The notes beneath the pieces are model-generated. The model ran no database searches and was not told the DNA's origin. It saw nothing but the letters and a program-made list of their open reading frames with translations. The position numbers were made by a program, and so were the translations under genes. From Azorinus chamasolen (taxonomy: Eukaryota; Mollusca; Bivalvia; Cardiida; Solecurtidae), in NCBI GenBank assembly GCA_963576725.1, contig OY755241.1, positions 74,995,001-75,059,000 on the forward strand: DNA of 64,000 nucleotides, in the 5' to 3' direction. This document shows, piece by piece, positions 5,672-54,031 of the stretch; position 1 is the stretch's first letter, and the number at the start of each line of letters is the position of its first letter.

Positions 5672-6752
5672 TATGTCTCCCCATATTTATATGGGGGAGA
5701 CATATTGTTTTCGTGAGAGTTGTATGTCTGTCCGTCTGTCTGTCCGTCCGTCTGTCCGTTTGTCCGTCTGTCCGTCATACTTTGTGTCCGGACGATAACT
5801 TCAATATGCCTGATGCCAGTTGATTGAAACTCTAATATAGGAGTTATTGCCCCTTGTAAAAAAATCACACTTTTTTGTCCGACCGATAACTCCTATATGA
5901 CTCGTGCCATTGGATTGAAACTTCATATATGGAAAGAGCATAATGAGAGGAAGTGTCATGCACAATGTCCATAACTCTGGCTTCACTAATATAGGAGTTA
6001 TTGCCCTTTGTAAAAAAATCACACTTTTTTGTCCGGACGATAACTCCTATATGGCTCATGCCATTAGATTGAAACTTCATATATGGAAATATCATGACGA
6101 GAGGAAGTGTCATGCACAAGGTCCATAACTCTGGCTTCACCAATATTGGAGTTATTGCCCTTTGTAAAACAAAATCACAATGTTTTTGTCAGGACGATAA
6201 CTACTATATGGCACATGCCATTGGAGTGAAACTTCGTACATGGAAAGATCATAATAAGAGAAAGTGTCATGCATAAGATCCTTAACTTGGGCTTCAATAA
6301 ATTTAGAGTTATTGCCCCTTGTACATTTGCTTAACGCTTTCTTGTCCTGGCGATAACTCCTACATGGCTCTTGTCATCGTATTGAAACTTCATACATGGA
6401 GAGAGCATGATGAAAGAAAGCGTAATGAACAAGGGCGATAACTCTTGCTTCAATACTTTTGGAGTTATTGTCCTTTGTTACATTTTTGGCCGATTAATAA
6501 CTCCTGTTCGACTGATGCTATTGGAATGACATTTTTTTTATGGAAAAGGCATGATGAAAGTAAGTGTCATGCACAAGGGCCATAACTCTGGTATCAATAT
6601 TTTTGGAGTTATTAGCTGTTATCATTTTGTTTAAATTAAAGTGCATAATGAGGGGAAGTATCATTCATCAGGTCCATAACATTTTTAGTGATTTCCCTTT
6701 ACATATTGTTTTTATTAGAGGGGAGACATCCGTTTTGTGACAAAAACCTCTA
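5672..6752 (+). mobile_element. Pearl/Helentron-like element with about 155-bp tandem units (TGTCTCCCC family)
   Basis: The 5' end is a hairpin in which TATGTCTCCCC pairs with GGGGGAGACATA, followed by ATTG and a (GTCCGTCT)n tract at 5725-5780. About six degenerate units follow. Each contains GTCCGGACGATAACTCC, TTGAAACTTCATAYATGG, GGTCCATAACTCTGGC and GAGTTATTGCCCTTTG. The 3' end is a short hairpin TTTTGTGACAAAA followed by CCTCTAGT. The plan (5' hairpin, microsatellite, about 150-bp core units, 3' stem-loop) fits the pearl/HINE non-autonomous rolling-circle elements reported from bivalves. No protein is encoded. Confidence 0.8.
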
Positions 6753-6754
6753 GT

Positions 6755-7957
6755 TAATTAATGCGTGTGTTATTTGTTTGTTTTTATTCTTTTTTACCAG
6801 TGGATACCTTTTTATTTGTATCGCGACGATATATTTGATTTGTAGCTAGACTTTATAGAAACTCAAGAAACGACATTTCCCACGGAAAATAAATTTGTGT
6901 GAACAAGTCTAGTACGATACAATCATTATAAAATACATTGAACATATTTGGACCATTCTGTCAATTAATGCCTGGTCAAATATAATTATAAGACCAGACG
7001 TGTAAAATCAATTAATATACTTAATAGTCTGAAATATACATACATTAATGTCTCCTTAATACAACCGCTGAAAAGAAGTATAATGCTGACTTTTTTAAAC
7101 AAATGGTAGTTGAATGGAGTTTTCTGCGTTATTATAATGTATATGGTATTATTATTATTAGTTCGTGTTACTATTATCATTATTATTGTAATTAGTATTA
7201 TAACTATTATTTTAACTATTATTATTACTATAATTAATATATATATGGCATTTTAATTATTATTGTTATTATTATCATTATTATTGTTATTATTATTACT
7301 TTTATTCCATAACTGGTGTCAACAGGCATAGAAATACTGCAATGTGTTCATGTGTTCTCTCAGCAGTTTTGTAAATGTAGCCATTCAATAATGTACAGAT
7401 AGTACCTGGCAATACCATGTGTTTTACAGTCAATTCTAGCTAATGCCACCGATACTGTTACTAACAGTGAGTCTGTAAAACAAGGTGGTTGGTTAATGAA
7501 GGGCAAAAGTAATGCAGCAAAACTCTAATGCGACCAAAAGTTTATTAACAAGGAGTATGCAAAAGTAGGTGGTTGCTTAACCCTTTCACCACCAATGTCG
7601 CAATACTTTCGATACCGGACGATTTGTTCGGTCCCGAGTTTTCCCTTTTTTTCTCATTATGAAAATCCCTGTAAAAACCGGACCTTGTGAAAACCGGATG
7701 CCGGACAGGTATCGCCAAATATTGGCTTCATTTCAATACAAATTAACCTCTGTAAACCGGATGCCAAAACCAGCCGACCGGAACGTAATTTGCTGACATG
7801 CCTCTCGACACGTTTGTATGCAACATGTCACCTCGCGCCATTGTTTATACAGTACAATTATCAATAGTCCCGATTAACGGTATGGCTAGGTATGAAATCT
7901 TGACCATTTAATGAGAAAAGGGCCGAATGATTAATTCTGAAAACAAATAACATTAAT
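6755..7957. other. AT-rich non-genic stretch with (ATT)n
   Basis: An (ATT)n/(TTA)n microsatellite spans about 7130-7310. At 7395-7560 there is a GGTGGTTGGTTAATG...AAAAGTAATGCAG segment, a decayed copy of the Tc1-like MITE palindrome. At 7660-7760 several CGGATGCCGGA words occur. I find no gene. Confidence 0.5.
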
Positions 7958-8178
7958 GATCGGGGCCACAGGGGTAAGACACGTTTGAGTCAGTATATGT
8001 ATGTATAGAAAGAAGGGATCCGACTTCAAAAGATCCAAATTACCCACTCCTCTACTTTAAACCCTTCGTTCTGCAAGAAATGCACCGATTTCGATCAGAT
8101 AAAAAGCTATTCCGTAAGCAAAGGCATTATTTTATTCGAATAATGACTCAAACGTGTTTACCCATGTGATCGGGGTTA
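7958..8178. repeat. About 220-bp inverted-repeat element
   Basis: The left arm contains GATCGGGG, CCACAGGGGTAAGACACG and TTTGAGTCA. The right arm contains the inverse, TGACTCAAACGTGTTTACCC then CGGGG. A shorter hairpin with the same CCACAGGGGTAAGACC arm is at 25348-25425. It is a foldback/MITE-like unit without coding capacity. Confidence 0.65.
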
Positions 8179-8510
8179 CATCAAACCTTACCTGCACTAA
8201 TTTTTGAACAAATTACGACATACCACAAATTTTGTCATTAATCAACAATTGAAAATCATTAATGATTGTAAATTCTTATGATGCCGACACACACACACAT
8301 CTTGTCAAAATTTCCCTTAATCCCGGTGAATGATTGTTAAAAGCTGTCTGCATGTAGAACCACATTCGCACTTCGAGTGACCTGGAGTTTAAATTTGCAA
8401 CATCCTGTAACCCTTTGCCTGTTACGTAAGTTTCCACATGCTTCATTATTAAAACTTCTCAAATTCGCTTTTATTTCTTGTAGAAATGTTGACTGAGTAT
8501 CAAACATATT

Positions 8511-8566
8511 GGATTCAGATCGGGCTCCGAGTTACTCGGTGTCTCACCTGGATCCAGTTTGTTTGC
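8511..8566. repeat. Palindrome of the GAGACGCCGAGTAACTCGG family
   Basis: CCGAGTTACTCGG lies at the centre, flanked by GGATTCAG on the left and CTGGATCC on the right, and ends in GTTTGC. Related palindromes are at 9152-9197, 25144-25195, 26446-26482 and 61228-61283. Each is about 45-55 bp and probably the core of a small MITE. Confidence 0.6.
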
Positions 8567-9151: not shown

Positions 9152-9197
9152 TGGATCCAGATGAGACGCCGAGTAACTCGGCCTCTTATCAGGATCC
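9152..9197. repeat. Palindrome of the GAGACGCCGAGTAACTCGG family
   Basis: GGATCCAGATGAGACGCCGA is followed by its inverted partner TAACTCGGCCTCTTATCAGGATCC. This is the clearest copy of this family in the window. Confidence 0.7.
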
Positions 9198-19023: not shown

Positions 19024-20640
19024 TCATGACAACTGACCAGAACCTGTCGCCGGTATATAAACATATGGATACAGTCTCTCTGTGACTGTGCCCCCGTCTG
19101 AAGTCGAGCTGTGTCGATTCGGTTGTTGGTGATATCCCAACGGCCTCCATTGATCGGAGCTCAACGTCTTGTTGATCCGCATCGTGCTTATCCCCGTATC
19201 TCTCACACATACATTTTGACAGGCGGTTAATAACAATTTCGTTCTACAGCAGATGACTACTATGACAACTGTTAATATAATTCCAATACCCAAGCTACTG
19301 ATAAACCATGTGTTAACAGAACTCGTTTCGACTGTGTTATAATTAAATTTGGCTAATTCATTCATTAATCTGTGTAACGGCATTTCTTTATTTTTTTCAA
19401 GAGTGGGAGGAATTGATATTTCAGTTTTGTTCGGATACATATCTGTCAGGTTTGCCCAAATCAAAGACGACGAAAAGTTCGCCTGCTTAAGAAATTCGCG
19501 CGCCGCATGCCCAGCAGTAGCTTCACCACTGATAAACACAGCTGATATAGAAAAGTAATTGGTCGTTAATTCGCACCCGTCCCGGAGCTTAATGATCTCG
19601 ATGAGTGGTTTTGTTGTAGATTCAGTATGCCAGTCGTAGCATACTCGCGCCGTTGCTAAAGGTTCTCGGGATATAATTGCCCAGAAATTATCAAACAAAT
19701 AGGCTGCTAATGGAACTTATCGCTAACCACCCCCACGAAACAATACTTTGTGAATGCAGCATTTCCCTGTGTAAACATTAAATAGGCACAATCTTGACGT
19801 TCTAATGTAGTATACAGGACTTGTTACCGTACATAATTTTATGTCTCCATGGCTACAGGCAAATATTTCCTGATCTGTCAGCAGCTGGTATTTCGTTCTC
19901 TGTTTGTTAATCAGCATACCGTTTGCCTCCAGATTAATATTTCCTAGAAGTTCGCGACCTAGCAAATTTGATACTGTTAACGGGGCTAACACTGGAATTG
20001 AGAGAGCTCGGTATACCTCATACGTCTGATCAATTTTTAATATAGGTATTGACATTACCATTAGAATTTTACCTTGAGTAAAAACTGCTGAAGTGGTTAG
20101 GTATTTATAGAATGACCAAGTTTTTCTTTAGGATCACTGATAAGAGTCATTAATTTAGGAAGCCTAGATTGAATTTGCAGAAGCAAGTTCTGTAAAGTTA
20201 AGGGTTGAATTATTCTTGTAGACATCTTCCCTAAAGCCAAAAAATCAATTCGAGCCCGTAGATTGGTAACATAAGCCCTAGCATTTTGTAATAACATTTT
20301 TATTTCATCAATTAACAACTCTACTCTTGCCTGCGTAGTGATAAGTCTACGGTTTCTGAGAATTTCATGCACGAGCATTTCTGATAACTGATATATTTCG
20401 GCATTTAGTTTCTGGAGAGACAGTATACTTCCATTTATAGATTGTCTATTTTCTTGAATCATTAATTTGGATTCATTTATCATAGTCATAATTTCCGTTA
20501 CATGAACCAAAATCTTTTGATTATCTGTTAATTTTCGAACCTGACCGCGGATTTTATTTATATCTCCGTCAGTCACTAACCCAAACAACCATGATAAACC
20601 TTCGCCGATAAAAGGCACTAACGACCTTTTTTTCCTACTG
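19024..20640 (-). pseudogene. env-like glycoprotein gene of the Gypsy element, broken
   Basis: Three minus-strand frames lie in order: 20618-20097, 20061-19723 and 19698-19024. The first is preceded by a basic RKKR motif (a furin-type site) and starts with a hydrophobic fusion-peptide-like stretch (PFIGEGLSWLFG), followed by a long helical, heptad-rich region. The middle part is Cys-containing. The last has a single membrane segment (about residues 128-150, WFISSLGIGIILTVVIVVIC) and a cytoplasmic tail of some 70 residues. This matches the baculovirus F-like fusion proteins carried by env-bearing Gypsy elements. The breaks near 20097 and 19723 are frame changes or stops. The segment upstream of 20640 also contains a stop and is then cut by the 20800 junction. 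Confidence 0.75.
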
Positions 20641-20799
20641 CGTATCTTTCATACATGTCTGACATCTGTAATTAATTGAGAGCGTATGGAATCTAAATAC
20701 TCCACTTCTCGCCTTAACCCAATAAAGCTGCTTATAAATGAGGCGAACGTCTCGTTATCAAAACTTGCCAGAAACGGACGCAACCAGTTTCTCATTCAT

Positions 20800-22036
20800 T
20801 ATCTACTGAGCTAGATTTACATTCAAGTGTTAACTGCTTGGACCATTTCATTCCTGTCACACAAGATGACGTTAAACGGATCATACAAAGCTCTCCGAAT
20901 AAATCCTGTGAACTGGACCCAATACCGACCTGGCTCTTGAAATTGTGTCTAGATGAACTACTTCCAATATTAACAGTAATAATTAACGCTTCGCTTGAAT
21001 CTGCACACGTTCCAGCATCTTTCAAAAGTGCATATATAAGGCCCCTTCTGAAAAAGCCAGGCCTTGACCAAAACATTTTGAAGAATTACAGACCAGTCTC
21101 CAACCTACCTTTCATATCCAATGCTCTCGAGAAAGTGGTTGACGTGCGCTTACAACAACATTTGACACTGAACAATTTGCACGAAGAACATCAATCTGCA
21201 TACCGCAAATTTCACTCGACAGAAACTGCACTTTTGAAAGTACAGAATGACATCCTCCAGTCGTTAGACCAGGGAAATGTCACAGTACTGGTTTTACTTG
21301 ACCTATCAGCAGCATTTGCCACCATTGACAACGGAACTCTTCTTTGTCGACTAGAACATCATTTTGGAGTTACAGGAAGTCCGCTGAAATGGTTCACCTC
21401 ATACCTAACCGACCGCTACCAAACCGTGTGTATCGATGGCGACCTTTCAAAACCTGTGCTGATGAAGTACAGTGTGCCCCAGGGGTCCGTTCTAGGTCCC
21501 AAAAGCTACACGATGTACACAAAGCCGATGGGTGCTATATGTCGTAATCATGGACTGAATCACCATTTCTACGCGGATGACTCCCAGCTGTACCTTTCGT
21601 TCAAACCAACTGATTGTACGACAGTAAGTGATGCATTGAAAATTGTCGAAGGTTGTCTCAATCACATTGTGTCATGGATGCATGAAAACATGCTTAAACT
21701 AAATGCTGACAAAACTGAAGTCATACTATTTTCCTCAAACAGCAATGCTAAATTTACTTCTGATATATCAATAAATGTCGGGGGTGCAAACATAAAACCA
21801 TCAAACTGTGTTAAAAATCTAGGTGCCTGGTTGGACTCAAAAATGACCATGGAACAACATGTTAACTCAGTCTGCAGGTCTTGTTATATGCAATTTAGAC
21901 AAATTGGCCAGATTAGAAAGTACTTAAACGCTGACGCCACAAAGTCACTGGTGCACTCCTTAGTAACATCACGCCTGGATTACTGTAACTCCCTTCTACA
22001 AGGCGTCCCAAAAATAATATTGAGCAAACTACAAAT
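20800..22036 (+). pseudogene. Non-LTR (CR1/Jockey-type) reverse transcriptase segment inside the Gypsy element
   Basis: An open frame from 20838 carries CELDPIPTWLLK (typical start of the RT domain), LIRPLLKKPG-like and NYRPVSNLPF blocks. Motif A is LDLSAAFATID (the usual second Asp is Ala), motif B is SVPQGSVLGP, and motif C is the catalytic YADD. A thumb with LDYCNSLLQGVP follows. The RT homology stops at SKLQM (about 22036). The frame then continues to 22361 only as the antisense of Gypsy RT. Endonuclease and the LINE 3' end are absent. A related fragment is at 43100-43584. Confidence 0.85.
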
Positions 22037-22462
22037 GTTCCACGATGGCAAGAGAACGAGGTCTTGCTTTTGTGTTCGTCATCCATCAACACCTGCCAGT
22101 AACCTGATTTTAAGTCTTAACGAGGTAAAGAATTTCGCCTTGCCCAACAGTGCAAGAATATCATCTATGATAGGCAAGGGATATGAATTAGTTTTCGTCA
22201 CCTTATTCAATTTCCTAAAATCAACACAAAACCGTTTCGAGCCATCTTTCTTATCTACTATTACTACAGGGAATGACCACGGTGACCTACTTCTCTCAAT
22301 GATTTTTGCATCCAACATTTCATCAATTGCCTTATCAATAACCTTCCTATTGTTTAGCTGACTACGATATGGTTTTAACTTGATTGGAGGTGAATCACCT
22401 GTATCAATTTTCATACGAACTGTATCAGTGTGGCTTAGTTCAGCATCAGTTTTTGCAAACAA
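22037..22462 (-). pseudogene. Gypsy reverse transcriptase, N-terminal part, truncated
   Basis: The minus strand reads AIDEMLDAKIIERSRSPWSF, then VIVDKKDGSKRFCVDFRKLN and SYPLPIIDDIL, the standard start of a Ty3/Gypsy RT (fingers). After KAKFFTSL the frame shifts, and the adjacent frame supplies the expected SGYWQV and CHRGTF words. It ends abruptly at about 22037 where the antisense LINE segment begins. The YxDD catalytic motif, RNase H and integrase are all missing. Confidence 0.85.
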
Positions 22463-22537: not shown

Positions 22538-23317
22538 CTACCCAACATCACTACCTTGTTTACCTGTTGACTTACTTTTCATTGCTTCCTCTACAGACGA
22601 AATGGTACCTGAATTGACCGAATTTACCTGTGCAACAGGTGTGCCTCGTTTAATAGAAATGGTCTTGTTAGTGGTATTTACCAAGAGAATAGGAACTTTA
22701 TGATCATTAGTGAGATTAAATACAGAGTGAGTTATCAGTAACCCTGGTTCATCTTGAATTTGTGAACCATTAAACGGTGTTACTTCGTATGACTGATCTA
22801 CCGAAAGGTCAGGGTGTTTACGAACTTTACACAGCGAAATATGTGCTGTCTGTGGGGCAATGACCACTTTGTTTTTCAATCTAATCATAGATGCTACGTG
22901 GATATCGTCTACCAGAGGTATATATGTTCCATGAACTCTTACACAAGATAGATCATGGTACACACGTACGCCTCGTGATTGTAACCAGTCAAGACCCAGA
23001 ATAACATTACGATTTAGATTTCGGACAACATAAAACGTGTGGCTCATTATCAGACCCCCTAACGAGAACTTAATCTCCGCGATGCCATCTACAAATAGAG
23101 GCGTGTTACCTGCCGTAGACAAATTTAGATTATTTTTTCGCAGCTTCAGCTTGGTCGTTAACCCATCATATACTCTACGTTGTATCAAAGAAACCTCAGC
23201 ACCTGAATCAAGTAATGCCCTGTACTTCTGTTTTCCTAATTTTAGCAACAAAGAATTTGAATGCGAGTTTGCTGAATTTAAATAACCATTGGCATTAAGA
23301 GTATTCTTACTTCTCAC
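22538..23317 (-). pseudogene. Gypsy aspartic protease region
   Basis: A 259-codon frame. DSGAEVSLI at about residues 37-45 is the retropepsin active-site motif (D-S/T-G-A). VILGLDWLQ near residue 108 is the conserved C-terminal ILG block of clan AA proteases. The region between protease and RT is lineage-specific linker. It is continuous here, but overlapping or frame-shifted relative to gag and RT, as is common in pol of Gypsy elements or from damage. Confidence 0.85.
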
Positions 23318-23343
23318 ATCGTCTTCAACATGTGAGAAGGAAC

Positions 23344-24396
23344 CTAGTTTAAATGTTGAGTTGATTTCGACCCTGTGCGCTGACTTTGAGATGCCCTACA
23401 ATCTCTCGCTATGTGCCCTCTCAACCGGCACCTAAAACACACGATATCGCTTCGGCGCTTAGCCTCCAGAACATTGACCTGCATATGTTTCTTTCTCTGC
23501 CTACAATCTTTGATAATATGACCATATCTGTTGCAATAATTGCAGCGCATTTGAGGCCTCGTGTGATCGATTTCCATGGGCTCTTGGCCAGAAGCTCGAC
23601 CACTCGACGAACCCATTGCTGCCCAGTCCGCAGCTGAAAACGCCTACGCAGATTTTGGTCTGTGGTAGCAATAACGATGGCGTGTTGGAAATTATCTGGA
23701 TTATCTCTCATGACCTTCATTTTCAAGTGATCGTCGTTTAACCCGTCAACAAAATGCCCTACTAACTGTTGCTCTCTCACAACCTGTGGTTGCCCTACAA
23801 ATGCATCTTCTGCATACGAATTTAAACGTTCTGCATAACTAGTTTGCTCCGGTGGGGTTCGATTTAACGTGACATATTTTTCAATATTTTTTACCCAGTC
23901 TTTAAATTCCTCAGGGTTTGAACCATCAAAATAAAACCGAGTCTGCAATTTTCTCTTTTTGTGTTGCAATGTTTGCTCTCGAGGATCACCTCCCTTTAGA
24001 ATTTATAATCTTCACAACAGCAGGTGTTAAGTGCTTGTATGGCGGCCGTAAAACGTCGCCCCGTACTTCATTCTCAGTGTTGTTATACCTTCTGATCATT
24101 CGAGATCATGAATTTCAGTACTTCTTGTTCTGAAAATTGAATACCGCTTAACCCGGTGCTAGGGGGCGTGAGCAGTGTTGCACTTTCAATTACTGCTCAT
24201 GAACAGACTCGATAAAACCGAGTCTGCAATTTTCTCTTTTTGTGTTGTAATTTTTGCTCTCGAGGATCACCTCCCTTTAGAATTTAACAATATTTGCTAC
24301 CCCTTGTGCTCCCAAAGATGTTGTCATTGAAGTCATCTGAGTATTAATTGCGTTACATAGCTGTAACAAAACCTGTGCCGGATCAGCTTCCGCCAT
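23344..24396 (-). pseudogene. Gypsy gag with two CCHC zinc knuckles, interrupted
   Basis: The start is MAEADPAQVLLQLCNAINTQ at 24396, running 39 codons to a stop at 24277 where a 280-bp dispersed unit intervenes. Gag resumes near 23935 with FDGSNPEEFKDWVKNIEKY, a typical Gypsy capsid start, and runs to about 23650, where the frame shifts. The 3' end at 23616-23344 holds two CX2CX4HX4C knuckles, CNYCNRYGHIIKDC and CFRCRLRGHIARDC, which bind nucleic acid. It is non-functional as it stands. Confidence 0.82.
24010..24288 (+). repeat. LTR-like dispersed unit nested in gag (copy 1)
   Basis: The unit begins near AACAGCAGGTGTTAAGTGCT and contains TATGGCGGCCGTAAAACGTC, GGTGCTAGGGGGCGTGAGCA, a hairpin ACTCG-ATAAAAC-CGAGT and an end near GGATCACCTCCC. 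Other copies are 30214-30482 (+), 44487-44755 (-) and 34497-34690 (-, truncated). Two of these keep AATAAA just before the hairpin, as in U3-R-U5 of an LTR. The last 70 bp are repeated directly at 23936-24004, so the insertion has a tail duplication. Confidence 0.65.
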
Positions 24397-27920: not shown

Positions 27921-29622
27921 CAATACAATACAATACAAACTTTATTTAAAGTCTGTGCATATATAACAATGTAACATTAGCTATGTATAACTATTTACCG
28001 ACATTAGGTCAGAGTAAAAATTCATGACGTACAAACAAACATAAGAACAATACAGACACATATACAATCAATTAAAATGATAGATCATATAAGATAAAAC
28101 ATAGTAACAAGCATAATAGTGCGACTGCTTAAGGAAGCATAATAGTGCGACTGCCTAAGGAGATTAAGAGCGATATCCCCATAAATGGTTTAAGAAGACT
28201 GATCAACAAAATTCATCACAGTACATGAAATCACATAAACAAGCTAAATTTTCTATTCCTGAATTGAGGGCTATGGTATAGCATGTATCAGAAAGCAACA
28301 AGCAGAAAAGATTCAAGCAGACAAAGCGACACACAGGAAACTAAAGTTGCAACGTGCAAGATAACAATAATGAAGCAGAAAAAGCGTCAAATAAAAGCGA
28401 TAAGCAAACAAAAGCACAAAAGAAAGCACAACTGCAGTGTAAGAGTTCTAAAATTTAATATGCACAGCGAGAACATCTGCATCTCTCTCCGTCCCATGAG
28501 CTAACCAGGCTCCGGAACTGGCCTAAACCAGTGATTTCTCTGAAATGCTGGGGAAAAGAGTTCCAATGCCTGGGTGCTGCAGATCGGAAAGAGCTGAGGC
28601 CATATCTTGAACTTCTTACCTGAAGGACTTCTGCTGTATTTGTATATCTAAAGGAGTAAGAATGAGATTTTATTTTAATCAAATCATGGAGATAAGATGG
28701 TGTATCTTTTTTTATTATTATTTTGAAGGTTTCTATTGCCAGTTTTGATTTTTGTAGCAAGCCATCATAGTCTGAATCATAAACATTATATATGAACCGT
28801 AAAGCTCTTTTCTGCAAACTTTCTATCTTTTGTGTATTTGTTTCTCCACAGAAATGCCAGGTTAATGGACAGAAGTTGAAATTTGAGAGAATAAAAGAAA
28901 TATATATATTGAGTTTACCTAATTTTGCAAATATATTTTCCAATACGTTTCAGCACATCTAATTGTCGTGAGGCCTTTTTGCATATATTTGAAACATGAG
29001 ATTCGAAATTTAGCCTAAAATCAAAAGTGACCCCAAGTAGATTTACTTCATCCTCACAAATTATTTCGTTTCCTGATAGATTAAAAGACACGTTACATTT
29101 CCGGGTTTTAGATCCTATAGCTATTGCCTGAAAATCTGGGTTTGCTTGCGTTCTGTTATTTGAAAACCAATTCATTAGAGAAAGGCTGTCCTGTTCCAGG
29201 GTTGATTTTACTTTGTTAAGATCATGATCTGCACAAGATAAGGTGTTATCATCCGCATAATTATACAATTTGCTGTCATTTACAAAATAAAAGATGTCAT
29301 TTAAAAATATATTCAAAAGTACCGGGCCTAGAATTGAGCCTTGAGGAACGCCTTTATATACTTCTTGAAAATCGCTTTTAAACTGCCCTATTTTAACACA
29401 CTGTTTCCTGTTGCTTAGATAGCTATGAATTAAAGTTAAAGAGTTTTCAGATAAACAGCGCTGTAAGTTTATGGAATTGTATAGATGTGATTTTACAGTT
29501 TCTGCCAAGGTAAACACAATCCTGCGTTCATCTGTCATTATAAAGTAAATACGTATAATAGTATTTCTTGTACATGGACATCGAACAGGCGACGGGTTAA
29601 ACCGCGGGGACAAAATTTTCAT
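27921..29622 (-). mobile_element. CR1/Jockey-type LINE, 5'-truncated, decayed
   Basis: On the minus strand two overlapping frames (29622-28915 and 28943-28455) give RT motif B GVPQGSILGP and motif C NYADDNTL. The thumb follows (EVNLLGVTFDFRLNFESHV) and then the C-terminal block KRALRFIYN ... PRHWNSFPQHF. A frameshift near 28930 separates them. The 3' end has AATAAAG and a (TTGTA)n simple repeat at 27921-27945, as CR1/Jockey elements have. The 5' end is lost within RT before motif A. It lies in the intron between exons a and b, antisense to the host gene, and is broken into a GCAAACAG hairpin copy. Confidence 0.85.
28106..28165 (+). repeat. Two-copy tandem duplication in LINE 3' region
   Basis: AAGCATAATAGTGCGACTGC is present twice with a spacing of about 26 bp inside the LINE 3' untranslated part. 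Confidence 0.7.
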
Positions 29623-29714
29623 ATTACGTCATTTTACATTGTTTCTGTAAAGACTTCTGATTGCAGAATTGCACAAACACTCAGCATAACCCTTATTCAT
29701 ATAAACATTTTCAG

Positions 29715-30763: not shown

Positions 30764-30777
30764 CTATGACATAATTA

Positions 30778-32068
30778 TATCTCACCCATGTTTATATGGG
30801 GGAAACATATTGTTTTCGTGAGAGTCGTCTGTTTGTCTGTCTGTCCGTCTGTCCGTCAAACTTTTTTTCCGGACGATAACTTCAATATGCCTGATGCCAG
30901 TTGATTGAAACTTCATATATGGAAAGAGCATAATGAGAGGAAGTGTCATGCACAAGGTACATAACTCTGGCTTCACTAATATAGGAGTTATTGCCCTTTG
31001 TAAAAAAATTCACACTTTTTTGTCCGGACGATAACTTCTATATGGCTCATGCCATTGGATTGAAACTTCATATATGGAAAGATCATGACGAGAGAAAGTG
31101 TCATGCACAAGGTCCATAACTCTGGCTTCACTAATATTGGAGTTATTGCCCTTTGTAAAAAATATCACATTTGTTTGTCCGGACAATAACTTCAATATGC
31201 CTGATGCCAGCTGATTGAAACTTCATATATGGAAAGAGCATAATGAGAGGAAGTGTCATGCACAAGGTCCATAACTCTGGCTTCACTAATATGGGAGTTA
31301 TTCCCCTTTGTAAAAAAATTCACACTTTTTTGTCCGGAAGATAACTTCTGTATGGCTCATGCCATTGGACTGAAACTTCATATATGGAAAGATCATAACA
31401 AGATGAAGTGTCATGCACAAGGTCCATAACTCTGGCTTAACTAATATTGGAGTTATTGCCCTTTGTAAAAAAATCACAATTTTTTGTCGGGATGATAACT
31501 CCTATGTGACACATGCCATTGGAGTGAAACTTCATACATGAAAAGATCATGATAAGAGAAATTGTCATGCATAAGATTCTTAACTCGAGCTTCAATAAAT
31601 TTAGAGTTATTGCCCCTTGTACATTTGTTTAATGCTTTCTTGTCCGGACGATAACTCCTACATGGCTCTTGCCATCGTATTGAAACTTCATACATGGAAA
31701 GAGCATGATGAGAGAAAGTGTCGTGAACAAGGGCCATAACTATGGCTTCGCTTCAATACTTTGGGAGTTATTGCCCTTTGTTACATTTTTTGGCCGATCA
31801 ATAACTCCTGTTCGACTATTGCTATTGGAATGACATTTTATTTTTGGAAAGAGCATGATGTAAGTGTCATGCACAAGGGCCATAAATCTGGTATCAGTAT
31901 TTTTGGAGTTATTAGCTGTTATAATTTTCTTCTTGAAAAATGTGGTTTGGAAAGCGCATAATGAAGGGAAGTATCATTCATCAAGACCATAACATTTTTA
32001 GTGATTTCCCTTTACATATTATTTTTATTAGAGGGGAGACATCCGTTTTTGTGACAAAAACCTCTAGT
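30778..32068 (+). mobile_element. Pearl/Helentron-like element with about 155-bp tandem units, copy 2
   Basis: The 5' hairpin has degenerated (CTCACCCATGTTTATATGGG), then ACATATTG and a (GTCCGTCT)n tract at 30833-30857. TTGAAACTTCATATATGG recurs at 30907, 31061, 31217 and 31372, giving periods of 154-156 bp. Each unit has CATAACTCTGGCTT and GAGTTATTGCCCTTTG. The 3' end is the hairpin TTTTTGTGACAAAAA followed by CCTCTAGT at 32061-32068. Frames of 60-90 codons on the minus strand are by-products of the units, whose period is not a multiple of three. Confidence 0.8.
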
Positions 32069-32896: not shown

Positions 32897-34116
32897 TATG
32901 TCTCCCCCATATTTATATGGGGGAGACATATTGTTTTCGTGAGAGTTGTCTGTCTGTCTGTCTGTCTGTCCGTCACACTTTTTGTCCGGACGATAACTTC
33001 AATATGCCTGATGCCAGTTGATTGAAACTTCATATATGGAAAGAGCATAATGAGAGGAAGTGTCATGACAAAGTCCATAACTCTGGCTTCACTATTATAG
33101 GAGATATTGTCCCTTGTAAAAAAAATCACATTTTTTGTCCGGACGATAACTCCTATATGGCTCATGTCATTTGATTGAAACTTCATATATGGAAAGATCA
33201 TGACGAGAGGAAGTATCATGTACAAGGTCCATAACTCCTCCTATATGGCTGAGAACTTCAATATGCCTGATGCCAGTTGATTGAAACTTCATATATGGAA
33301 AGAGCATAATGAGAGGAAGTGTCATGCACAAGGTCCATAACTCTGGCTTCACTATTATAGGAGTTATTGCCCCTTGAAAAAATCATACTTTTTTGTCCGG
33401 ACGATAACTCCTATATGGCTCATGCCATTGGATTGAAACTTCATATATGAAAATATCATGACGAGAGGAGGTGTCATGCACAAGGTCCATAACTCTGGCT
33501 TCACTAATATTGGAGTAATTGCCCTTTGTAAAAATAAAATCACAATTTTTTGTTAAGACGATAACTCGTATATGGTACATGCCATTGGAGTGAAACTTTA
33601 TACATGGAAAGATCATAATAAGAGAAAGTGTCATGCATAAAATGCTTAACTTGGACTTCAATAAATGTAGAGTTATTGCCCCTTGTACATTTGTTTAATG
33701 CTTTTTTGTACGGACGCTAACTCCTACATGGCTCTTGCCATCGTATTGAAACTTCATACATGGAGAGAGCATGATGAGAGAAAGTTTCATGAACAAGGGC
33801 GGTAACTCTTGCTTCAGTACTTTTGGAGTAATTGCCCTTTGTTACATTTTTGGCTGATCAATAACTCTTGTTCGACTGATGCTATTGGAATGACATTTTA
33901 TTTATGGAAAAGGCATGATGAAAGTAAGTGTCATGCAGATGGGTCATAACTCTGGTATCAATATTTTTGGAGTTATTAGCTGTTACCATTTTGTTTGGAA
34001 AGTGCATAATGAGGGGAAGTATCATTCATCAGGTCCATACCATTTTTAGTGATTTCCCTTTACATATTGTTTTTATTAGAGGGGAGACATCCGTTTTTGT
34101 GACAAAAACCTCTAGT
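32897..34116 (+). mobile_element. Pearl/Helentron-like element with about 155-bp tandem units, copy 3
   Basis: An intact 5' hairpin, TATGTCTCCCCCATATTTAT with its partner ATATGGGGGAGACATA, leads into TTG and (GTCT)n with GTCC at 32947-32971. About seven units follow, one of them broken by an internal duplication at 33235-33300. The 3' end has TTTTTGTGACAAAAA and CCTCTAGT. It lies 240 bp right of exon c in the same orientation as copies 1 and 2. Confidence 0.82.
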
Positions 34117-37496: not shown

Positions 37497-39623
37497 TTTT
37501 TATACGCCCACCTAATAAAGGTGGTCGTATATTGGCGTGGCCATGTCCGTCCGTCCGTTCGTTCGTTTGTTCGTTCGTTCGTCCGTCAACATTTTGTTTG
37601 TCCGCAGTTTTCTCGGAAAACTGTTTGACAGATATTAATGAAACTTCGCACCAATGTTTAATGTATCAAGATCTGAAGCTGAGTTGATTCTGAGGTTCAT
37701 TTGATTTTTATGCCCCCAAAGGCGGGCATATAGTAATCGCATTGTCCGTCCTTCCGTCTGTCCGTCTGTCCGTCTGTCCATCTGTCCGTCCGTCCGTCTG
37801 TCCTTCCGTCCCAAATTCGTGTCCGGTCTGTAACTTCTTCATCTATCAATGGATTTCAATATGACTTGCCACAAATGTTCATCAGACAGAGACGATGTGT
37901 CGCGTTTAACTTCCAGGTCCATGGGTCAAAGGTCAAGGTCACAGGGTGCAATTACTTTGTCACAAATTTCGTGTCCGGTCTGTAACTTCTTTATCTATCA
38001 ATGGATTCCAATATGACTTGCCACAAATGTTCACCACACAAAGACAATGTGTCGCGTTTAACTCCCAGGTCCATGGGTCAAAGGTCAAGGTCACAGGGTA
38101 CAATTACTTTGTAACAAATTTCGTGTCTGGCCTGTAACTTCTTTATCTATCAATGGATTTCAATATAACTTGGCACAAATGTTCACCACACAAAGACGAT
38201 GTGTCGCTTTCAACTCCCAGGTCCATAGGTCAATTACTTGTTTATCTGTGAATGGATTTCAAAGGAACCTGGCACAAATGTTCACCACACAAAGACGATG
38301 TGTCAAATCCCTGGTCCATGGGTCAAAGGTCAAGGCCACAGGGTACAATTATTGGGGGCATTTGTCACGTGACAGTGATATCTCTTGTTCGTTTCAGAGT
38401 TATGGCCCTTGCCCTTAAAAAATGCAAATAGTTTGTCCGCTGTTTTCTGGGAAAACTGAATGAGAGATATTAATGAAACTTCACACAAATGTTTAATGCA
38501 TCAAGATCTGAAGTCGATTCTGATGTTCATTTGATTTGTCGTTTCGGAGTTATGGCCCTTTTACTTAAAAATAATGTAAATACATGCAAATAGTTTGTCC
38601 GCTGTTTTCTGGGAAAACTATTTGAGAGATATTAATGAAACTTCACACAAATGTTTAATGCATCAAGATCTGAAGCTGAGTTGATTCTGAGGATCATTTC
38701 ATTTTTCGTTTCAGAGTTATGGTCCTTGTCCTTAAAAATTAATGCAAATACATGCAAATAGTTTGTCCGCTGTTTTCTGGGAAACTATTTGAGAGATATT
38801 AATGAAACTTCACACAAATGTTTAATGCATCAAGATCTGAAGCTGAGTCGATTCTGAGGTTCATTTGGTTTTTAGTTTAAGAGTTATGGCCCTTTTACTT
38901 AAAAAATAATGCAAATATATGCATATAGTTTGTCCGCTGTTTTCTGGGAAAACTGTTTGACAGATATTAATGAAACTTCACACACATGTTTAATGCATCA
39001 AGACCTGAAGCTAAGTCAATTCTGAGGTTCATTGGATTTGCCGTTTTGGAGTTATGGCCCTTGCACTTAAAAGAAATAATGCAAATCTATGCAAATATAT
39101 ATGAGTATGGCCATATCTTTTTCATTTGAAATGATATTTACTTCAATATTTTGTATATGGTTAAACCTTAATATGAATTTTCACATATATTGCGGGGTTT
39201 TTGGTAAGTCATTTTATTCTAAAGTTATGGTCCTTGAACTTTGTGTGTTCGTTGCTTTGTTTGTCGGTCAGCTTTTAGTTTGTCTCTTGTTTTCTGGGAA
39301 AACTATTAAAATGATATAAATGAAACTTCACAGAAATGTTTTAAGCAACAAAATCTGAAGCTGAGTTTATTTTGAGGTTCATTCAGTTTGTCTTTACAGA
39401 GTTATGGCCGTTGCACTTTTCAAAACTCTGCAAATATGAGGATTAGCTGTAACTTTTTTATTTAATAAGATATTCACTTCAATTTTTATTAAAAATAGTA
39501 TCACCTTAATATGGAAATCAAGATCTGAAGCACAGATTAGAAAATGTCAACACTTATAAGGCATGTTGAATCAGAGAAAGATTGCAAGTGGGCGTATTAT
39601 GTACCGTATGCGGTACTCTTGTT
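37497..39623 (+). mobile_element. Pearl/Helentron-like element with about 162-168-bp units (TATACGCCCACC family)
   Basis: The 5' hairpin is TATACGCCCACCT with AGGTGGTCGTATA, then TTGG and (GTCC/GTTC)n at 37543-37586. TTTGTCCGCTGTTTTCTGGG recurs at 38431, 38593, 38761 and 38928. Units also carry ATGAAACTTCACACAAATG and GAGTTATGGCCCTTG. The 3' end is the hairpin GTACCGTATGCGGTAC followed by TCTTGT (39608-39620). A different element (37708-38384) is inserted in the first unit. It starts right after exon e. Confidence 0.8.
37708..38384 (+). mobile_element. Nested pearl/Helentron-like element (ATGCCCCC family, about 151-bp units)
   Basis: Inserted inside a TGATTTTTCGTTTCAGAG word of the host element. 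The 5' hairpin ATGCCCCCAAAGGCGGGCAT is followed by a (GTCCGTCT)n tract. Unit starts TCGTGTCYGG occur at 37818, 37969 and 38121 (periods 151-152), with AAATGTTCACCACACAAAGA and GGTCAAAGGTCAAGGTCACA. The end is GGGGGCATTTGTCACGTGAC then ATATCTCTTGT. The surrounding unit resumes with TCGTTTCAGAG. Confidence 0.8.
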
Positions 39624-40721: not shown

Positions 40722-42096
40722 CAAGAGGGCCATGAGGCCCTGAAGCGCTCACCTGAGATAACCCAAGGGGCGGGGCCATTTTTGACCACAAGAAATCATT
40801 TGTACAACCTTGGTAGAACCACAAGGCAAAGCAATATGTCATTAATTTAAGGTCTAAGCCTTATGGTTTCAAAGAAAAATAATATTTTATACTTTTCCCA
40901 TGGAAAACTGATAAGCCCTGAGGCAGGGCCAAGTTTCGCCCAGTGGTCAGGGTCGTAAGTTGAATATTATTGGCAGAGAACAACAAGCCACAGCTACATA
41001 TTTGTAGAGGACCATTAGATCATGTTACATACCAAACATAAAAGGTCCAGGCCTTACAGTTTCAGTATATTTTTAATGATTTTCCTATGAAAAACTGATA
41101 GTCCCTTGGGCGGGGCTAATTTTGGTCTGGGGGTCATAATTTGAACAATCTTTGTAGAGGACCATATGATCATGCTACATACCAAATATGAAAGGTCTAG
41201 GCCTTACAGTTTCAGAGAAGAAGATTCTTAAAGAGTTTCCTATAAAAAACTGATAAGCCCTTGGGCGGGGCCATTTTTGGACCGGGGTCATAATTTGAGT
41301 AACCTTGTAGAGGACCATAAGATCATGCTACTTACCAAATATCAAAGGTCTAGGCCTTACAGTTTCAGAGAAGAAGACTTTTAAAGGTTTTCCTATTAAA
41401 ACTGATAAGCTCTTGGGCGGGGCCATTTTTGGCGCGGGGTCATAATTTGAACAATCTTTGTAGAGGACCATAAGATCATGCTACATAACAAATATCAAAG
41501 GTCTAGGCCTTACAGCTTCAGAGAAGAAGATGTTTAAAGATTTGCCTATGAAAAACTGATAAGCCCTTGGGCGGGGGGTCATAATTTGAACAACCTTTGT
41601 AGAGGACCATAAGATCATGCTACATAACAAATATCAAAGGTCTAGGCCTTACAGCTTCAGAGAAGAAGATGTTTAAAGATTTGCCTATGAAAAACTGATA
41701 AGCCCTTGGGCGGGGCCATTTTTGGCCCGGGGGTCATAATTTGAACAACCTTTGTAGAGGACCATAAGACCATGCTACATACCAAATATCAATGGTCTAG
41801 ACCTTACAGTTTCAGAGAAGAAGATTTTTAAAGATTTTTCTATGAAAAACTGATAAGCCCTTGGGCGGGGCCATTTGTGGCCGGGGGTCATAATGTGAAC
41901 ACTGTTTCATCCCCCCTAGCCACTGATGCTTCTGACAAAATTTCGTTAAATTCGGGTCAGCAGTTTCAGAGATGTCATTTGAAAATGTGGACGGACGACA
42001 GACGCTGGAAGCCGGACACCGGACGACGGACACCGGACGACGGACACATCGCGGTCACAATAGCTCATCCTGAGCCTTCGGCTCAGGTGAGCTAAA
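40722..42096 (-). mobile_element. Pearl/Helentron-like element with about 153-bp units, minus orientation
   Basis: On the minus strand the 5' end is a hairpin (AGCTCACCTGAGCC with GGCTCAGGATGAGCT), then ATTG and a (GTCCGTC)n tract at 42000-42045. ACTGATAAGC recurs at 41249, 41402, 41555, 41694 and 41849 (mostly 152-155 bp; one unit is shorter). Each unit has TTTGATATTTGGTATGTAGC and TTCAAATTATGACCCC. The 3' end is the hairpin GGGCCTCATGGCCC followed by TCTTGT at 40722. It has the same end structure as the plus-strand families but other sequence. Confidence 0.8.
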
Positions 42097-49499: not shown

Positions 49500-49750
49500 A
49501 AACCCACCGACAACCAAACAGAAGTAAAAATTCTGAGAGCATCGACGCTTTTCACGTGCTTGCAAACAGAGTAGACACGGATACGATGACTCTTATAGAA
49601 ACCGTCTGATCAGGGTATTCTCTGTTTGCTTATGAATTTATGTTGGATCTAACTCTATAGTATTGTTCCAATACCAAAACAGCCTCAGTACATAAGCTAT
49701 TTTAAAAATAAATTTAATAAATATTCATGATATCGGTATTTCGGTTTACG

Positions 49751-50056
49751 GACATTTGCCCCCCGAACACTTGCCCCCGGACCATTGCCCCCTATTTGGG
49801 CATGGGCGGACATTTGCCCCCTGGTGTTTTAGCTTTATATGGACAGTAGCTGCCTAACACAGGTTGACTGTCTGTATAATAAATATATATTTTAGATTAT
49901 ATATAGATTTTTTTTTTTTTAAAAAAAAAAGATAAAAAATAATTTTTAAAAAAGGGTGGCATTTTTTCCAGTGGCATATTTTCCGGTGGCATTTTTTCCA
50001 AATCAGGGTGGCATTTTTCCCGGTGGCATTTTTTCCAGTGGCATTTTTTCCGCAGA
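49751..50056. repeat. Cluster of short sub-repeats (GGACATTTGCCCCC and GTGGCATTTTTTCC)
   Basis: The left side has GGACATTTGCCCCC-type units three or four times. The right side has GTGGCATTTTTTCC-type units about six times. The inverse of the right unit, GGAAAAAATGCCAC, resembles the left one, so this may be a small foldback element of the kind at 47284 and 50354. The arms are weakly similar and I see no target duplication. Confidence 0.45.
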
Positions 50057-51157
50057 CTGCATTAAGCAGTCACTTGCCTTTGAAAATGATACATTAACAC
50101 TAATTCGATGTTTTTACGCGGAAACAAAATTTAGTCGATTTTTATTTTAAAAGAAGACAGAAGGAAACCCGGCAAGAAAACAAAAAATCATTTTTAAAAG
50201 CAAATTCTTTCAGCATAATAAATGTAGGTAACTTGGACATTCTCTATAGGACCCTGCAAGTTTCAAAAGATAAAAAAAAAAATATGCAGATCAACCCTTA
50301 GCCCGCCGAGCGTGGCTTCCTTAATATTTACAAACAGTTTGTATACTGAACAGGGGTGTAGGGCAAAACCCCACTAGGACGTAACCCCACTAGGACGTAA
50401 CCCCATAGGACAATTCCCCACTAGGACCAAACCCCAGTAGGACAATACCCCACATGGACAAACCCCATTTTAATCATAATTATGTCTTTAATTAAGGATA
50501 TATACATACAAATGGCACTTCATAGCAATAGAAAGGGAGAATAAAACATACGAGAAAAGAAAAAAGTATAAATATTTAAGTTCAATGGGAATAAAAGTAA
50601 TAAATAACTATGTTGTTATGCATATGGTAATATGGTAATAACCTGATTTTCACTAAAAGCATAAGTTGTATTATCACAAAGAGGATATTTTCATATCTTT
50701 TTACAATCAGAATAAGTCCAGATCATACAGATTCTAAAACACCTTTGCTAATTTATTGGGTACAAGATTAAAGTCAATGTGAAAACAAACTTTCATGATT
50801 AAATAAGAAAGGTGTGAAATGTAAAGACTATCCAACCAATCAAGCTTTTAATGACTATCACAGTGAGTAAAGTATTTGTCATTAAAGAAGAAATATGCGA
50901 ATTTAAATACTTTAAAGAGAATTAGGTGTGAAATCATTAATAAAAAGAATTTGCTGTATCAAAGTTTTCAGTACAATGCCATGTATAATCCTGTTTAATT
51001 AATTGTATGTATAATTAACTTTGATACATCTAAAACACATCACACATTCAATCAGTAGTTTAGTGTAATCTTCTTTAACTGAATTTAATATATAATTATG
51101 ACTATTGAACATTGATACCGCTAAAAACAATTAAATTAAAAGTAAAATTAAAATTAA

Positions 51158-51536
51158 ACTAAAGCTCATTTAACTATGAATGCATTCTTTATTTATTCAT
51201 AATTTTGACCTAATTTTAAATATGCTTTAACTTCTATTTTATTTGCAGATTGTAACTTTAAATTTGAAAATGTAAAGATCTTGCTTTGAATGTATATTCT
51301 GATTGAGTGTATCTTCTTCAAATTATCTAAAAGTTGATTTAAAAGTAAACTAAAGCTCATTTAACTATGAATGCATTCTTCATTTATTCATAATTTTGAC
51401 CTAATTTTAAATATGCTTTAACTTCTGTTTTTATTTGCAGATTGTAACTTTAAATTTGAAAATGTAAAGATCTTGCTTTGAATGTATATTCTGATTGAGT
51501 GTTTCTTCTTCAAATTATCTAAAAGTTGATTTATAG
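51158..51536 (+). repeat. 191-bp tandem duplication
   Basis: ACTAAAGCTCATTTAACTAT occurs at 51158 and 51349, and the following about 190 bp match almost base for base. The near identity indicates a recent duplication inside the foldback element. Confidence 0.88.
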
Positions 51537-51539
51537 CGA

Positions 51540-52060
51540 GCACAGCTCGCAAGAATGGCCGAATTTTGGCAATCTTGCGAACGAAGTGAGCTCTATGGTA
51601 ACGCGTAGGATATAAATTTGGTTCTCTAGGCTGTACATTGTTAACCTAGAATCGGTTGTATGGATTTTTCGCTTCCGGTTTGATCCATTCAGCAATCGGA
51701 ACACCTCGAAATAGCCGAGGTGTTACGAGTGATTCCTATATTCCGAACTCTGACGGAATACAGCGAGTAGTTACGATTGGTACATGGATATTGACGGGTT
51801 ACACTTTATTCAATGTCAAATTTTATCAACTTAATACCCGAAAATCCACACAAATCGCAACAACGTTTGTCTACGAAGAAAATCGATTTACTAAATTGTA
51901 ACTTGCATTTCGTTTCGGTATAGATTTAACTATTTGAATCGCTGTTTATTTGCCTGAAAATTAATGTTTTCCGTTCGGTAAACGTCTCCGTCCGAGATCG
52001 AGTTAGCGGAAAAGGCCGAGTGTATGTGTTAAGTCTGATGACGTATTATCCACAACTTGT
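51540..52060 (+). repeat. Dispersed sequence shared with 12.0 kb and 26.1 kb
   Basis: CCGAACTCTGACGGAATACA (51742) occurs inverted near 12045. GAAATAGCCGAGGTGTTACGAG matches 26101-26122, and GCGGAAAAGGCCGA matches 26222. It is probably one mobile family of 500 bp or more that also includes the 11507/26227 repeat. Its ends are not defined. Confidence 0.4.
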
Positions 52061-52690
52061 AAGTGACGTAGTTGTGGTCACATGACTTCCATTAATCGTC
52101 TGCAGTGCATTTTGTTTACATACAAGGCTCAGCTGTGTTACTCTTCCGGTTCCTACTGTCAATAACTTTGTATGTGAGTAATTTAGACATTGATTATTAA
52201 ATTTTCTTTCATTTGAATCAGTTGTCAATACAAAACATGACATTATTTGAATTGGATCTACATCTAGATATTTATCCCGGCGTAGGGTGTTTTCGACGGT
52301 GTAAGCGGTTTTCGTAAATTTGACCTACTTAAACAAATGCCGATTGCTTGAATAAATATGTGAGTGAAACATGCAAACGAATGTATATCACTGAGATTTT
52401 ATAAAGAACTAGATCTACGGCAACGTAGAATTGTTTACATTTTGAACCAAAATAGCTTAAGTCTTGGTGAAATCTGACTTGTTCTTTCCGACTAGTCTGT
52501 CTATCTGCAGGTATGTCTGCAGTGTTTAAGTTTCGTAGTCTTTCTGTCCTTCTTTAAATACTGTTTTACATAAATCAGCCTGTCTGACTGACTTCTTTAA
52601 TTAGGCCCACATCTAACATCCCAGACATAGATATACAGCCTTGCAGACATATTCTCTATTTACAATCATTCTACATAGAAAGTTAATAAC

Positions 52691-53230
52691 ATGATTGAAC
52701 AACTTGAAGGCTTAGCAACATCATTTAACACAGACATCACACCTTTAAAGGTTGGGAGCATACCACCAGCATCACTTCAGAAATACACAGAATTAAAAAA
52801 CAAGCACAGCAAATTTCATTCAAGCCAATTCTCTGACACTGAAATACACACTAAACAAAAATCTTTAGAAGAGGACAAAAAACATATAAATACAAAAATA
52901 TCACACATAAACACTCAGCACAATCTACCAACAATCAGATGGGATTGAGACATCAAGAAAACAAGCACACAAAAAAACGAGGGAGGCATGCCCAAAATTC
53001 TAAAAAATATAGAAAATGTACTAATGAAGTTATGTTCATATATGTATGATGGAGTTCACCCTGATTACTGGCTAACTTACAAGTGGTTTTCCATTGTTTG
53101 CAAGACAGTTCAGAATGACTTAAGTTGCCCTTCTTCCCTGCAAGATGTTGCTGCTGCTGATGATGATGCTATTGATTACAATTTTAATGATGAAAATGAT
53201 TCTGATTCATGGGATTTCAAACGAAAATAG
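52691..53230 (+). pseudogene. Unrecognised 180-codon frame with one internal stop, cargo of the foldback element
   Basis: A frame from ATG at 52691 runs 85 codons to a TGA (52946-52948). In the same frame it continues through MPKILKNIENVLMKLCSYMY to a TAG at 53230. The N-terminal part is Lys/His-rich and helical. The C-terminal part has VHPDYWLTYKWFSIVCKTVQ and an acidic Asp-rich tail. I recognise no domain. Being in one frame across the TGA suggests a single coding region with one nonsense change, or a short intron. It lies on the plus strand inside 50354-54658 and could be a captured exon or the element's own gene. Confidence 0.4.
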
Positions 53231-53610
53231 CTTTTAACTACCCCTAAGATATACTGTATGCATGTGTAACACATAGTTCAAATGGTTCACCCTTTCCTCC
53301 ATGCTAAATAGGAAATAGTTAAGATTATGTTATATGTGTTAATAAATACACTTATATGCATGCACGCAGTATTGTCCTTATCCTATTGACCTATCCAGTA
53401 ACTTCAAAGTCTATAATCACCATCATTAGCATCAATTGACATTAAGTTACTAATACAACGGCTCCATCAATATCTTCTGTTTTCTGCATGTTTCTATCTC
53501 AATGCACCTAAATGTACCTGGTGTACATGCAAATATACCACAACTAACAAACAGCTTGTCTTGCCATTTTAACCCTTTCCTCTGCATATGTAACACCATA
53601 TGACACCTTC

Positions 53611-54031
53611 ATGCCCCCATAGACGATAGTCGGGGGGCATATTGTTTTTGCCCTGTCTGTCTGTCTGTTTGTCTGTTTGTCTGTTTGTTTGTCAGCAACT
53701 TTAACATTGGTCATAACTTTTGAGCCAGTATAGATAGAGACTTGATATTTGGCATACACATGTATCTCATGAAGCCGCACATTTTGAGGGGTGACGTGTC
53801 AAGGTCAAGGTCATCCTTCAAGGTCAGAGGTCAAATATATGGGTCAAATCGCCGACTTTAACATTGGCCATAACTTTTGGACCAGTAGAGATAGAGACTT
53901 GATATTTGGCATGCTTGTGTATCTCATGAGGCTGCACATTTTGAGGGGTGACATGTCAAGGTCAAGGTCAGAGGTCAAGGTCAGAGGTCAAATATATGAG
54001 GGGGCATAGTGTTTCACAAACACATCTTGTT
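53611..54031 (+). mobile_element. Pearl/Helentron-like element (ATGCCCCC ... GGGGGGCAT family), two units
   Basis: The 5' hairpin is ATGCCCCCATAGACGATAGT with CGGGGGGCAT, then ATTG and (GTCTGTTT)n. TTAACATTGG occurs at 53701 and 53858 (period 157), with GAGACTTGATATTTGGCATA and GGTCAAGGTCA in each unit. The end is GAGGGGGCATAGTGTTTCAC, AAACAC then ATCTTGT. It is nested inside the foldback element. Confidence 0.8.

Follow-up and report, generated by a model that had tools for sequence, protein, structure and literature searches.

Probable non-autonomous Helentrons with differing subterminal repeats and a recurrent 3' word in the genome of the bivalve Azorinus chamasolen

Elements of the window and their architecture

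The stretch analysed (the window, 64,000 nt of Azorinus chamasolen contig OY755241.1, positions 74,995,001 to 75,059,000) carries eight elements that are very probably non-autonomous Helentrons (Helentron-associated interspersed elements, HINEs), whose ends, rather than their cores, would be read by the transposition protein. Inspection of the letters confirmed all eight elements of a preliminary description of this DNA. Each consists of a 5' palindrome formed by a subterminal inverted repeat (subTIR), a GTCY/GTCC microsatellite, a tandem core array with a repeat of about 150 bp, a second subTIR, a 3' hairpin and the word CTAG or CTTG. The elements and their terminal modules are as follows.

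5673..6753, + strand: HINE family A, copy A1; subTIR ATGTCTCCCC, core repeats of 155 bp
5673..5703, + strand: 5' palindromic subTIR hairpin of A1; 0 of 200 shuffles fold as well
6718..6753, + strand: 3' module of A1, with subTIR, hairpin and CTCTAG, then TT
30777..32067, + strand: HINE family A, copy A2; 5' left arm mutated, end CTCTAG followed by TA
32898..34115, + strand: HINE family A, copy A3
34079..34115, + strand: 3' module of A3, end CTCTAG followed by TT
37502..39621, + strand: HINE family C; subTIR ATACGCCCACC, 167-bp core, interrupted by B2
39589..39621, + strand: 3' module of C, with GGGCGTAT, the GTACCGTATGCGGTAC hairpin and CTCTTG, then TT
37710..38387, + strand: HINE B2; subTIR ATGCCCCC, 152-bp core, nested in C
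38354..38387, + strand: 3' module of B2, end CTCTTG followed by TT
53611..54029, + strand: HINE B1; subTIR ATGCCCCC, 157-bp core
53998..54029, + strand: 3' module of B1, with GGGGGCATA, the GTGTTTCACAAACAC hairpin and ATCTTG, then TT
4981..5235, - strand: HINE B3; 5' end and core B2-like, 3' hairpin B1-like, end CTTTTG
40722..42093, - strand: HINE family D; subTIR AGCTCACCTGAG, 155-bp core
42062..42093, - strand: 5' hairpin of D; identical in its first 13 nt to that of the Rep-helicase element at C2:89472967
40722..40757, - strand: 3' module of D, with CTCAGGTGAGC, the GGGCCTCATGGCCC hairpin and CTCTTG

The core period is thus 152-167 bp, B3 having a single monomer, and the microsatellite is of the GTCY type, with a GTCCGTC-type variant in D. 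The plan of 5' hairpin, GTCY-type tract, internal array, 3' hairpin and CTTG/CTAG had been described beforehand and was present at every place named, B3 having one monomer and the ending CTTTTG; the 3' subTIR and the nesting of B2 inside C are features absent from that description. Its count of six sequence-unrelated families was wrong. In a self-comparison of the window, A1, A2 and A3 (the elements named there at 5672, 30778 and 32897) align mutually over most of their length and form one family, the subTIR ATGCCCCC is common to B1, B2 and B3 (53611, 37708 and 4983 on the minus strand), and neither C, with B2 excluded, nor D matched other window elements beyond the microsatellite. Therefore, there are four subTIR families (A, B, C and D) with five 3' ends. 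Family A comprises three copies, and family B two 3'-end subtypes plus one copy combining both, B3. The 5' part and core of B3 are 75% identical to B2 over 237 bp, and its last 26 bases are 92% identical to B1; it looks like a chimera with the 5' half from B2 and the 3' end from B1. It also departs from the usual 3' word, with CTTTTG followed by CTT.

The families look abundant in the window's own genome (1.72 Gb), in which all genome searches were made: first-look candidates, 40 of which were scored per query, numbered 6003 for A3, 12077 for D, 1459 for C, 1433 for B2 and 214 for B1.

A joint grammar, composed after the elements were already known, combined a 5' hairpin, a nearby GTCY tract, the right arm again 180-2300 nt downstream, a hairpin and CTWGT. 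It gave five matches in the window, all of them listed elements, against two in total in 100 dinucleotide shuffles; A2, B3 and C were not caught. Two looser versions were rejected. Without the tract there were seven matches with the word (three of them listed elements) against 0-4 per shuffle in 20 shuffles, too many by chance, and with the word dropped as well there were 121 against 15-30, a figure inflated by the repeats of the window.

The ends were also folded as DNA, each against 200 shuffles. At the 5' side no more than three shuffles folded as well for six of the eight elements, the exceptions being A2 (13) and B3 (31). For the seven 3' ends folded (A2 was left out), the numbers of shuffles as good were 1 for C, 2 for B3, 6 for D, 7 for B1, 13 for both A1 and A3, and 111 for B2. 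The 3' palindrome of the window B2 is mutated: the right arm of its 6-bp stem (TGTCAC/GTGACA), GTGACA, is intact in eight of nine other B2 copies and lost in L126 and in the window copy. By inspection, the 5' palindromic subTIR is present in all eight window elements, and it recurs in the genome copies of A (36 rows, two being reverse re-readings of the palindrome). The 3' arrangement that marks Helentrons and HINEs, a subTIR with a palindrome after it, was found in the window and in genome copies, and the microsatellite with central tandem repeats (one monomer in B3) is that of non-autonomous Helentrons.

Element boundaries and target sites

Distinct genome ends of A, B1 and D were collected by anchoring on the subTIR or hairpin, not on the word. 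Five loci (L001, L006, L013, L028 and L031) were excluded from the counts as duplicates, and A1, which has a hairpin shorter by one T and ends in CTCTAG-TT, stands outside the count for A; the D loci L088, L100 and L101 share flanks, so not all counted ends are independent insertions. CTWG was present at 29 of 30 ends of A, 25 of 26 of B1 and 14 of 14 of D, with TT directly after it in 28/29, 25/25 and 12/14, respectively; only L033, with CTTTAG, and L003, with GTGTTG, depart from the word. In family C, CTCTTG-TT followed by differing flanks was seen in 13 of 13 cases (the window copy and 12 of 39 other scored places), and the word with TT stood at the end of B2 in 10 of 10 (the window copy and nine of 39). 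Of 39 matches in the B2 search, whose query ran three bases on, 27 stop exactly at TT, 10 extend by 1-3 bases and two end earlier. Hairpin and CTWG, followed by TT, are the true 3' boundary, where unrelated flanks start: the genome copies of A, B1, B2, C and D diverge there, as the preliminary description had supposed for its CTTG/CTAG word.

At the other side, 33 of 34 forward rows of A start with TTATG or TTATA. Among 20 complete copies of B1, rows picked for complete ends, ATG is preceded by exactly five T in 12, by six T in three and by the base C in three. In D at least five T stand before the element in six of seven copies.

Joined flanks of 57 insertions were compared with about 300 kb of fetched sequence in order to find empty sites. 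The site of L045 (family A) has exactly two bases fewer in five of five sister monomers (at least 84% identity), and that of L010 (B1) in two of two sisters, the missing bases being T's in the best matches. When the site of the B2 copy nested in C is compared with its five sister C stretches, all five give a gap of two bases. L047 (A), which lies in an abundant degenerate repeat, is less sure, since the site has two T fewer against L062 and a two-base gap with other letters in three others. Weighing against a uniform two-T insertion, L032 has five extra bases, L040 is ambiguous by one base and L060 lacks at least 11 host bases; the target of a D element inserted in A is ambiguous to read. No target duplication beyond two T was seen at the interpretable empty sites. 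Insertion at TT without a longer duplication, as previously suggested, thus holds for L045, L010 and the nested B2, less surely for L047, and not for L032, L040 and L060. The TT may be either part of the element or duplicated at the target, and the accessible text of PMC4067079 reports the same ambiguity for mite HINEs.

Tandem copies also occur. Two B1 units (L005/L006) lie head-to-tail with eight T between them and 0 mismatches over 406 nt, and L053 has an A-like 3' end directly followed by the 5' end of an A element, the junction being CTCTAG-TT-ATGTCTCC. Such copies have been attributed to termination bypass or circles (accessible parts of PMC4067079 and PMC5148889); insertion beside an older copy or recombination can explain them as well, which counts against taking them as a sign of rolling-circle transposition.

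Rep-helicase elements and neighbouring features

The genome contains 109 matches to the Helitron_like_N domain (PF14214), many of them in frames of more than 1000 aa, and none were found in 14 control genomes. At L062 (C14) Helitron_like_N, PIF1 helicase and Exo_endo_phos lie above cut-offs in one 1650-aa frame, and at L061 (C3) the same three domains are above cut-offs together with a Herpes_teg_N match; this is the Helentron combination. The 3' ends were sought at 22 of the 109 places (20 plus L061 and L062). The automatic end-finder flagged L065, L062, L069 and L073, of which only L065 and L062 held, and the ends of L069/L078 and L070/L079 were defined by comparison of copies.

The single-copy L062 ends about 480 nt past the stop codon with GTGGGGGTAT, a hairpin and CTAG-TT, and its subTIR matches HINE-family 5' modules in L041 and L056 (5' modules only). 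By eye, a D-type 5' module with a core, lacking the left arm, lies back to back with the Rep gene at about 9660-10000 of L062 and seems to interrupt the upstream frame of that gene.

The copies L070 and L079 are 96.5% identical over 744 bp and split right after CCTTG-TTT. L069 and L078 diverge after the same letters; the two copy pairs lie on C12/C4 and on C7/C1. A HINE at L029 (family F, subTIR AGTCCCCC) matches the last 145 bp of L070/L079 at 94.5%, up to the boundary.

Family D is linked to the element on C2. An open frame of 2593 aa lies at C2:89482411, with CTCAGGTGAGCGATATAGGGCCATCTGGGCCCTCTTG 1.26 kb past its stop codon. Another copy, on C4 and not among the 22 places, is 98.9% identical to this element over 373 bp and splits from it right after CTCTTGT. 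Upstream of the frame, C2:89472967 carries AGCTCACCTGAGCAAAGCTCAGGGTGAGCT, a GTCCGTCGT tract and a 146-bp core array; no D-type 3' end was found in the 6.8 kb behind this module. The frame is flanked by the 5' hairpin AGCTCACCTGAGC (L105) and the 3' CTCAGGTGAGCG (L065), 14,862 bp end to end, and the whole looks like a Helentron of about 14.9 kb that carries the subTIR of the window D at both ends. The sequence examined comprises the stretches on either side of the middle 5.6 kb (C2:89479801-89485439). As the subTIR is identical over at least 11 bp and only 65% of the last 60 bp agree, the window D and the C2 element would belong to one family and to different subfamilies under the scheme in the accessible text of PMC4067079. 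By eye, a short HINE-like insert with the 5' TTTTTAGCTCG and the 3' GCACCCACTTGCGGTGC, then CCTTG-TTTT, lies in the 3' region of the C2 element (L065, about 350-620).

Several points weigh against full autonomous partnership. The endonuclease matches of the C2 element lie below the Pfam cut-offs (24.6 against 27.4 bits and 22.8 against 24.5), a D HINE with a lost 3' end might in principle account for its 5' side, and its identity to the window D is the said 65% in the last 60 bp, rising to 82% over the last 37. The 5' end of the F Helentron was not found in C12:17487001-17493000, a search that stopped 1.6 kb short of the gene; these 6 kb upstream carry an open frame and a HINE-like 5' module other than that of F. 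A 3' end was identified at only six of the 22 places examined, and among these no autonomous partner for A, B or C was found. Candidates for a partner with shared ends and Rep, helicase and endonuclease are therefore that with D-type ends (endonuclease below cut-off, sequence read on both sides of the middle) and that of F (5' end not located). The earlier expectation that this genome has Rep/helicase elements ending in the same way is borne out by the six resolved ends and by the D and F links. In the window itself, 27 frames reach 110 aa or more, and the 10 of them scanned with Pfam gave no Rep or helicase match. A scan of viral contigs gave no match to the D hairpin.

Further HINE-like 5' modules were noticed in the fetched loci, in flanks (L041 2680+, L056 2927-, L060 3684-, L005 2809-, L029 2477-, L026 2487+ and L012 376+) and inside the C2 Helentron (L102 5141+); they carry other subTIRs, namely ATACCCCC, AGTCCCCC, a variant of that of A, and AGGGCCCTGCAT. 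A palindromic repeat around AACAGAGTAGACCCAGATCAGACGGCTCC is very common in the window and in many loci, and short arrays of phrases like AAACCCCACTAGGACG and its complement lie at 50366-50468, 54575-54651 and 49756-49792 of the window. At 20097-20648 (-), together with 22538-23395 (-) and neighbouring frames, the window also contains a Baculovirus F-like envelope fragment (PF12259) and, close to it but in a frame of its own, an aspartyl protease of retroviral type (PF13975); the group is described here as the remains of an envelope-bearing long terminal repeat (LTR) element. Reverse transcriptase frames (PF00078), which we guess to be of the non-LTR type, lie at 20742-22361 (+) and 28915-29628 (-). 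Outside the window, L103 843-2309 (+) encodes a 489-aa frame without a Pfam match, whose GIPMGTNCAP stretch we take to be reverse-transcriptase-like.

End recognition, rival explanations and known systems

The identification as HINEs is backed by the ends, by the insertion into T runs and by the Rep-helicase elements with like ends. In the mechanism envisaged, a Helentron Rep would nick at CTWG/TT, rolling-circle synthesis would displace one strand, the 3' hairpin and subTIR would mark the stop, and the strand or a circle would join a T-rich target, each subTIR family presumably depending on a Helentron lineage of its own. In the case of Helitron2, the end point was proposed to be set when the 5' repeat pairs with the 3' repeat (accessible text of PMC3627910).

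Two other classes of element are highly improbable. Canonical Helitrons (Helitron1) have 5' TC, 3' CTRR, an A/T target and no 5' hairpin (PMC4067079 and PMC3627910, accessible parts). The CTAG ends of family A fit CTRR, but those of B1, B2, C and D are CTTG, and the elements have a 5' hairpin, subTIRs and a T-run target, with an endonuclease domain in L062 and L061; the Helitron1 combination of termini, insertion into A/T and lack of a 5' hairpin was not found. Equally hard to credit is a cut-and-paste origin as miniature inverted-repeat transposable elements (MITEs), with terminal inverted repeats and target duplications, in which form Pearl was first described. By inspection the 5' and 3' subTIRs are mutually inverted, as such an origin would have it; yet the 3' repeat is subterminal, with a further hairpin beyond it, the ends are shared with Rep-helicase elements, and at the interpretable empty sites no more than two T are extra, which would also fit a 2-bp TT duplication alone. 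Terminal inverted repeats combined with a fixed-length target duplication were not observed.

What the common 3' word means is less certain. The preliminary description inferred a single replication machinery, that is, one Rep/helicase reading the generic structure and CTWG-TT in all families, with the subTIR sequence irrelevant. In favour of this, the word is common to the five ends (A, B1, B2, C and D) and to four resolved Helentron lineages while the hairpins differ. However, in both HINE-Helentron links, D and F, the partners agree in the sequence of the subTIR or of the 3' end, and the genome has many Rep-helicase loci side by side (the 109 matches), which makes cognate pairing the simpler reading. 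One enzyme for all is thus unlikely, and, because the end sequences of HINE and Helentron match in both links, several Helentron lineages with their own subTIRs under one class-wide rule seem to fit better. A somewhat less unlikely alternative is common descent without function, the plan and the word being kept from one ancestral Helentron. Shared ancestry at some depth is likely, since every lineage whose gene is known is a Rep-helicase element, and the cores of A and F are homologous (score 97 against a shuffle maximum of 31); on the other hand, hairpin and subTIR vary between families and the boundary word is constant, which suggests constraint. As for the other cores, A-B2, B1-B2 and B1-D beat the shuffles in the same orientation (0-1 of 1000), the higher score of A-C and of F-C is that on the opposite strand, and F-B1 beats the shuffles there only; homology of all cores was dropped in view of these opposite-strand scores and of most other pairs being near chance. 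Our tentative proposal is that CTWG-TT behind a hairpin may be a class-wide nick and termination signal, that the subTIR may serve as a lineage-specific password, and that core arrays may be exchanged between end modules, A and F having one core with different ends and B3 joining the B2 5' half to the B1 3' end.

The plan has close counterparts among known systems, as far as the accessible portions of the papers cited describe them. Cg_HINEs of Crassostrea gigas have a 5' subTIR with a complementary inverted repeat, a GTCY/GTCC/GTCK microsatellite, central repeats of 140-180 bp, a 3' subTIR with a palindrome, and a T-rich target without duplication, and some of their families are unrelated in all modules (PMC7492417). 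No common 3' terminal word is given in that portion, and autonomous Repbase elements could not be related to them, whereas two HINE-Helentron links are proposed here. The bivalve Pearl elements CvA, CvE and CvG, with core repeats of about 160 bp and by description a comparable architecture, have been re-categorised as non-autonomous Helentrons, according to the same paper. Helentrons and HINEs of mites, Culex and Drosophila have subTIRs, a 3' palindrome and a TT target, and a Rep/helicase/endonuclease partner shares its ends with the HINEs; Culex HINEs are more than 95% and DINE-1 98% identical to their partners (PMC4067079), while here D is linked by subTIR and end structure only and F by the last 145 bp. 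Helitron2 has hairpins at both ends and asymmetric terminal inverted repeats, the 3' repeat lying just upstream of the hairpin (PMC3627910), and is without the endonuclease domain (PMC4067079) present in L062 and L061.

The claim that an architecture shared across unrelated families is new therefore falls, since it is already published, among others for 11 oyster Cg_HINEs (PMC7492417, PMC4067079 and PMC3627910, accessible parts). Taken together, the preliminary account was right in the identity, the boundary, the TT insertion and the presence of partners, and went astray in the family count, the novelty and the single machinery. In the literature searched, which left Repbase, supplements and much subscription literature outside its scope, neither a 3' word CTWG-TT common to Helentron families nor a cognate autonomous Helentron for bivalve HINEs was found; one oomycete proto-Helentron is given with 3' CTAG (accessible text of PMC4067079), and an oyster study detected no autonomous copies (PMC7992393, accessible part). 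The shared word CTWG is possibly unreported. The elements are new families of a known kind, to which a HINE-Helentron partner link is added, and an open Rep-helicase element with ends matching an abundant HINE family provides a concrete pair with which the choice of ends by Helentrons can be tested.

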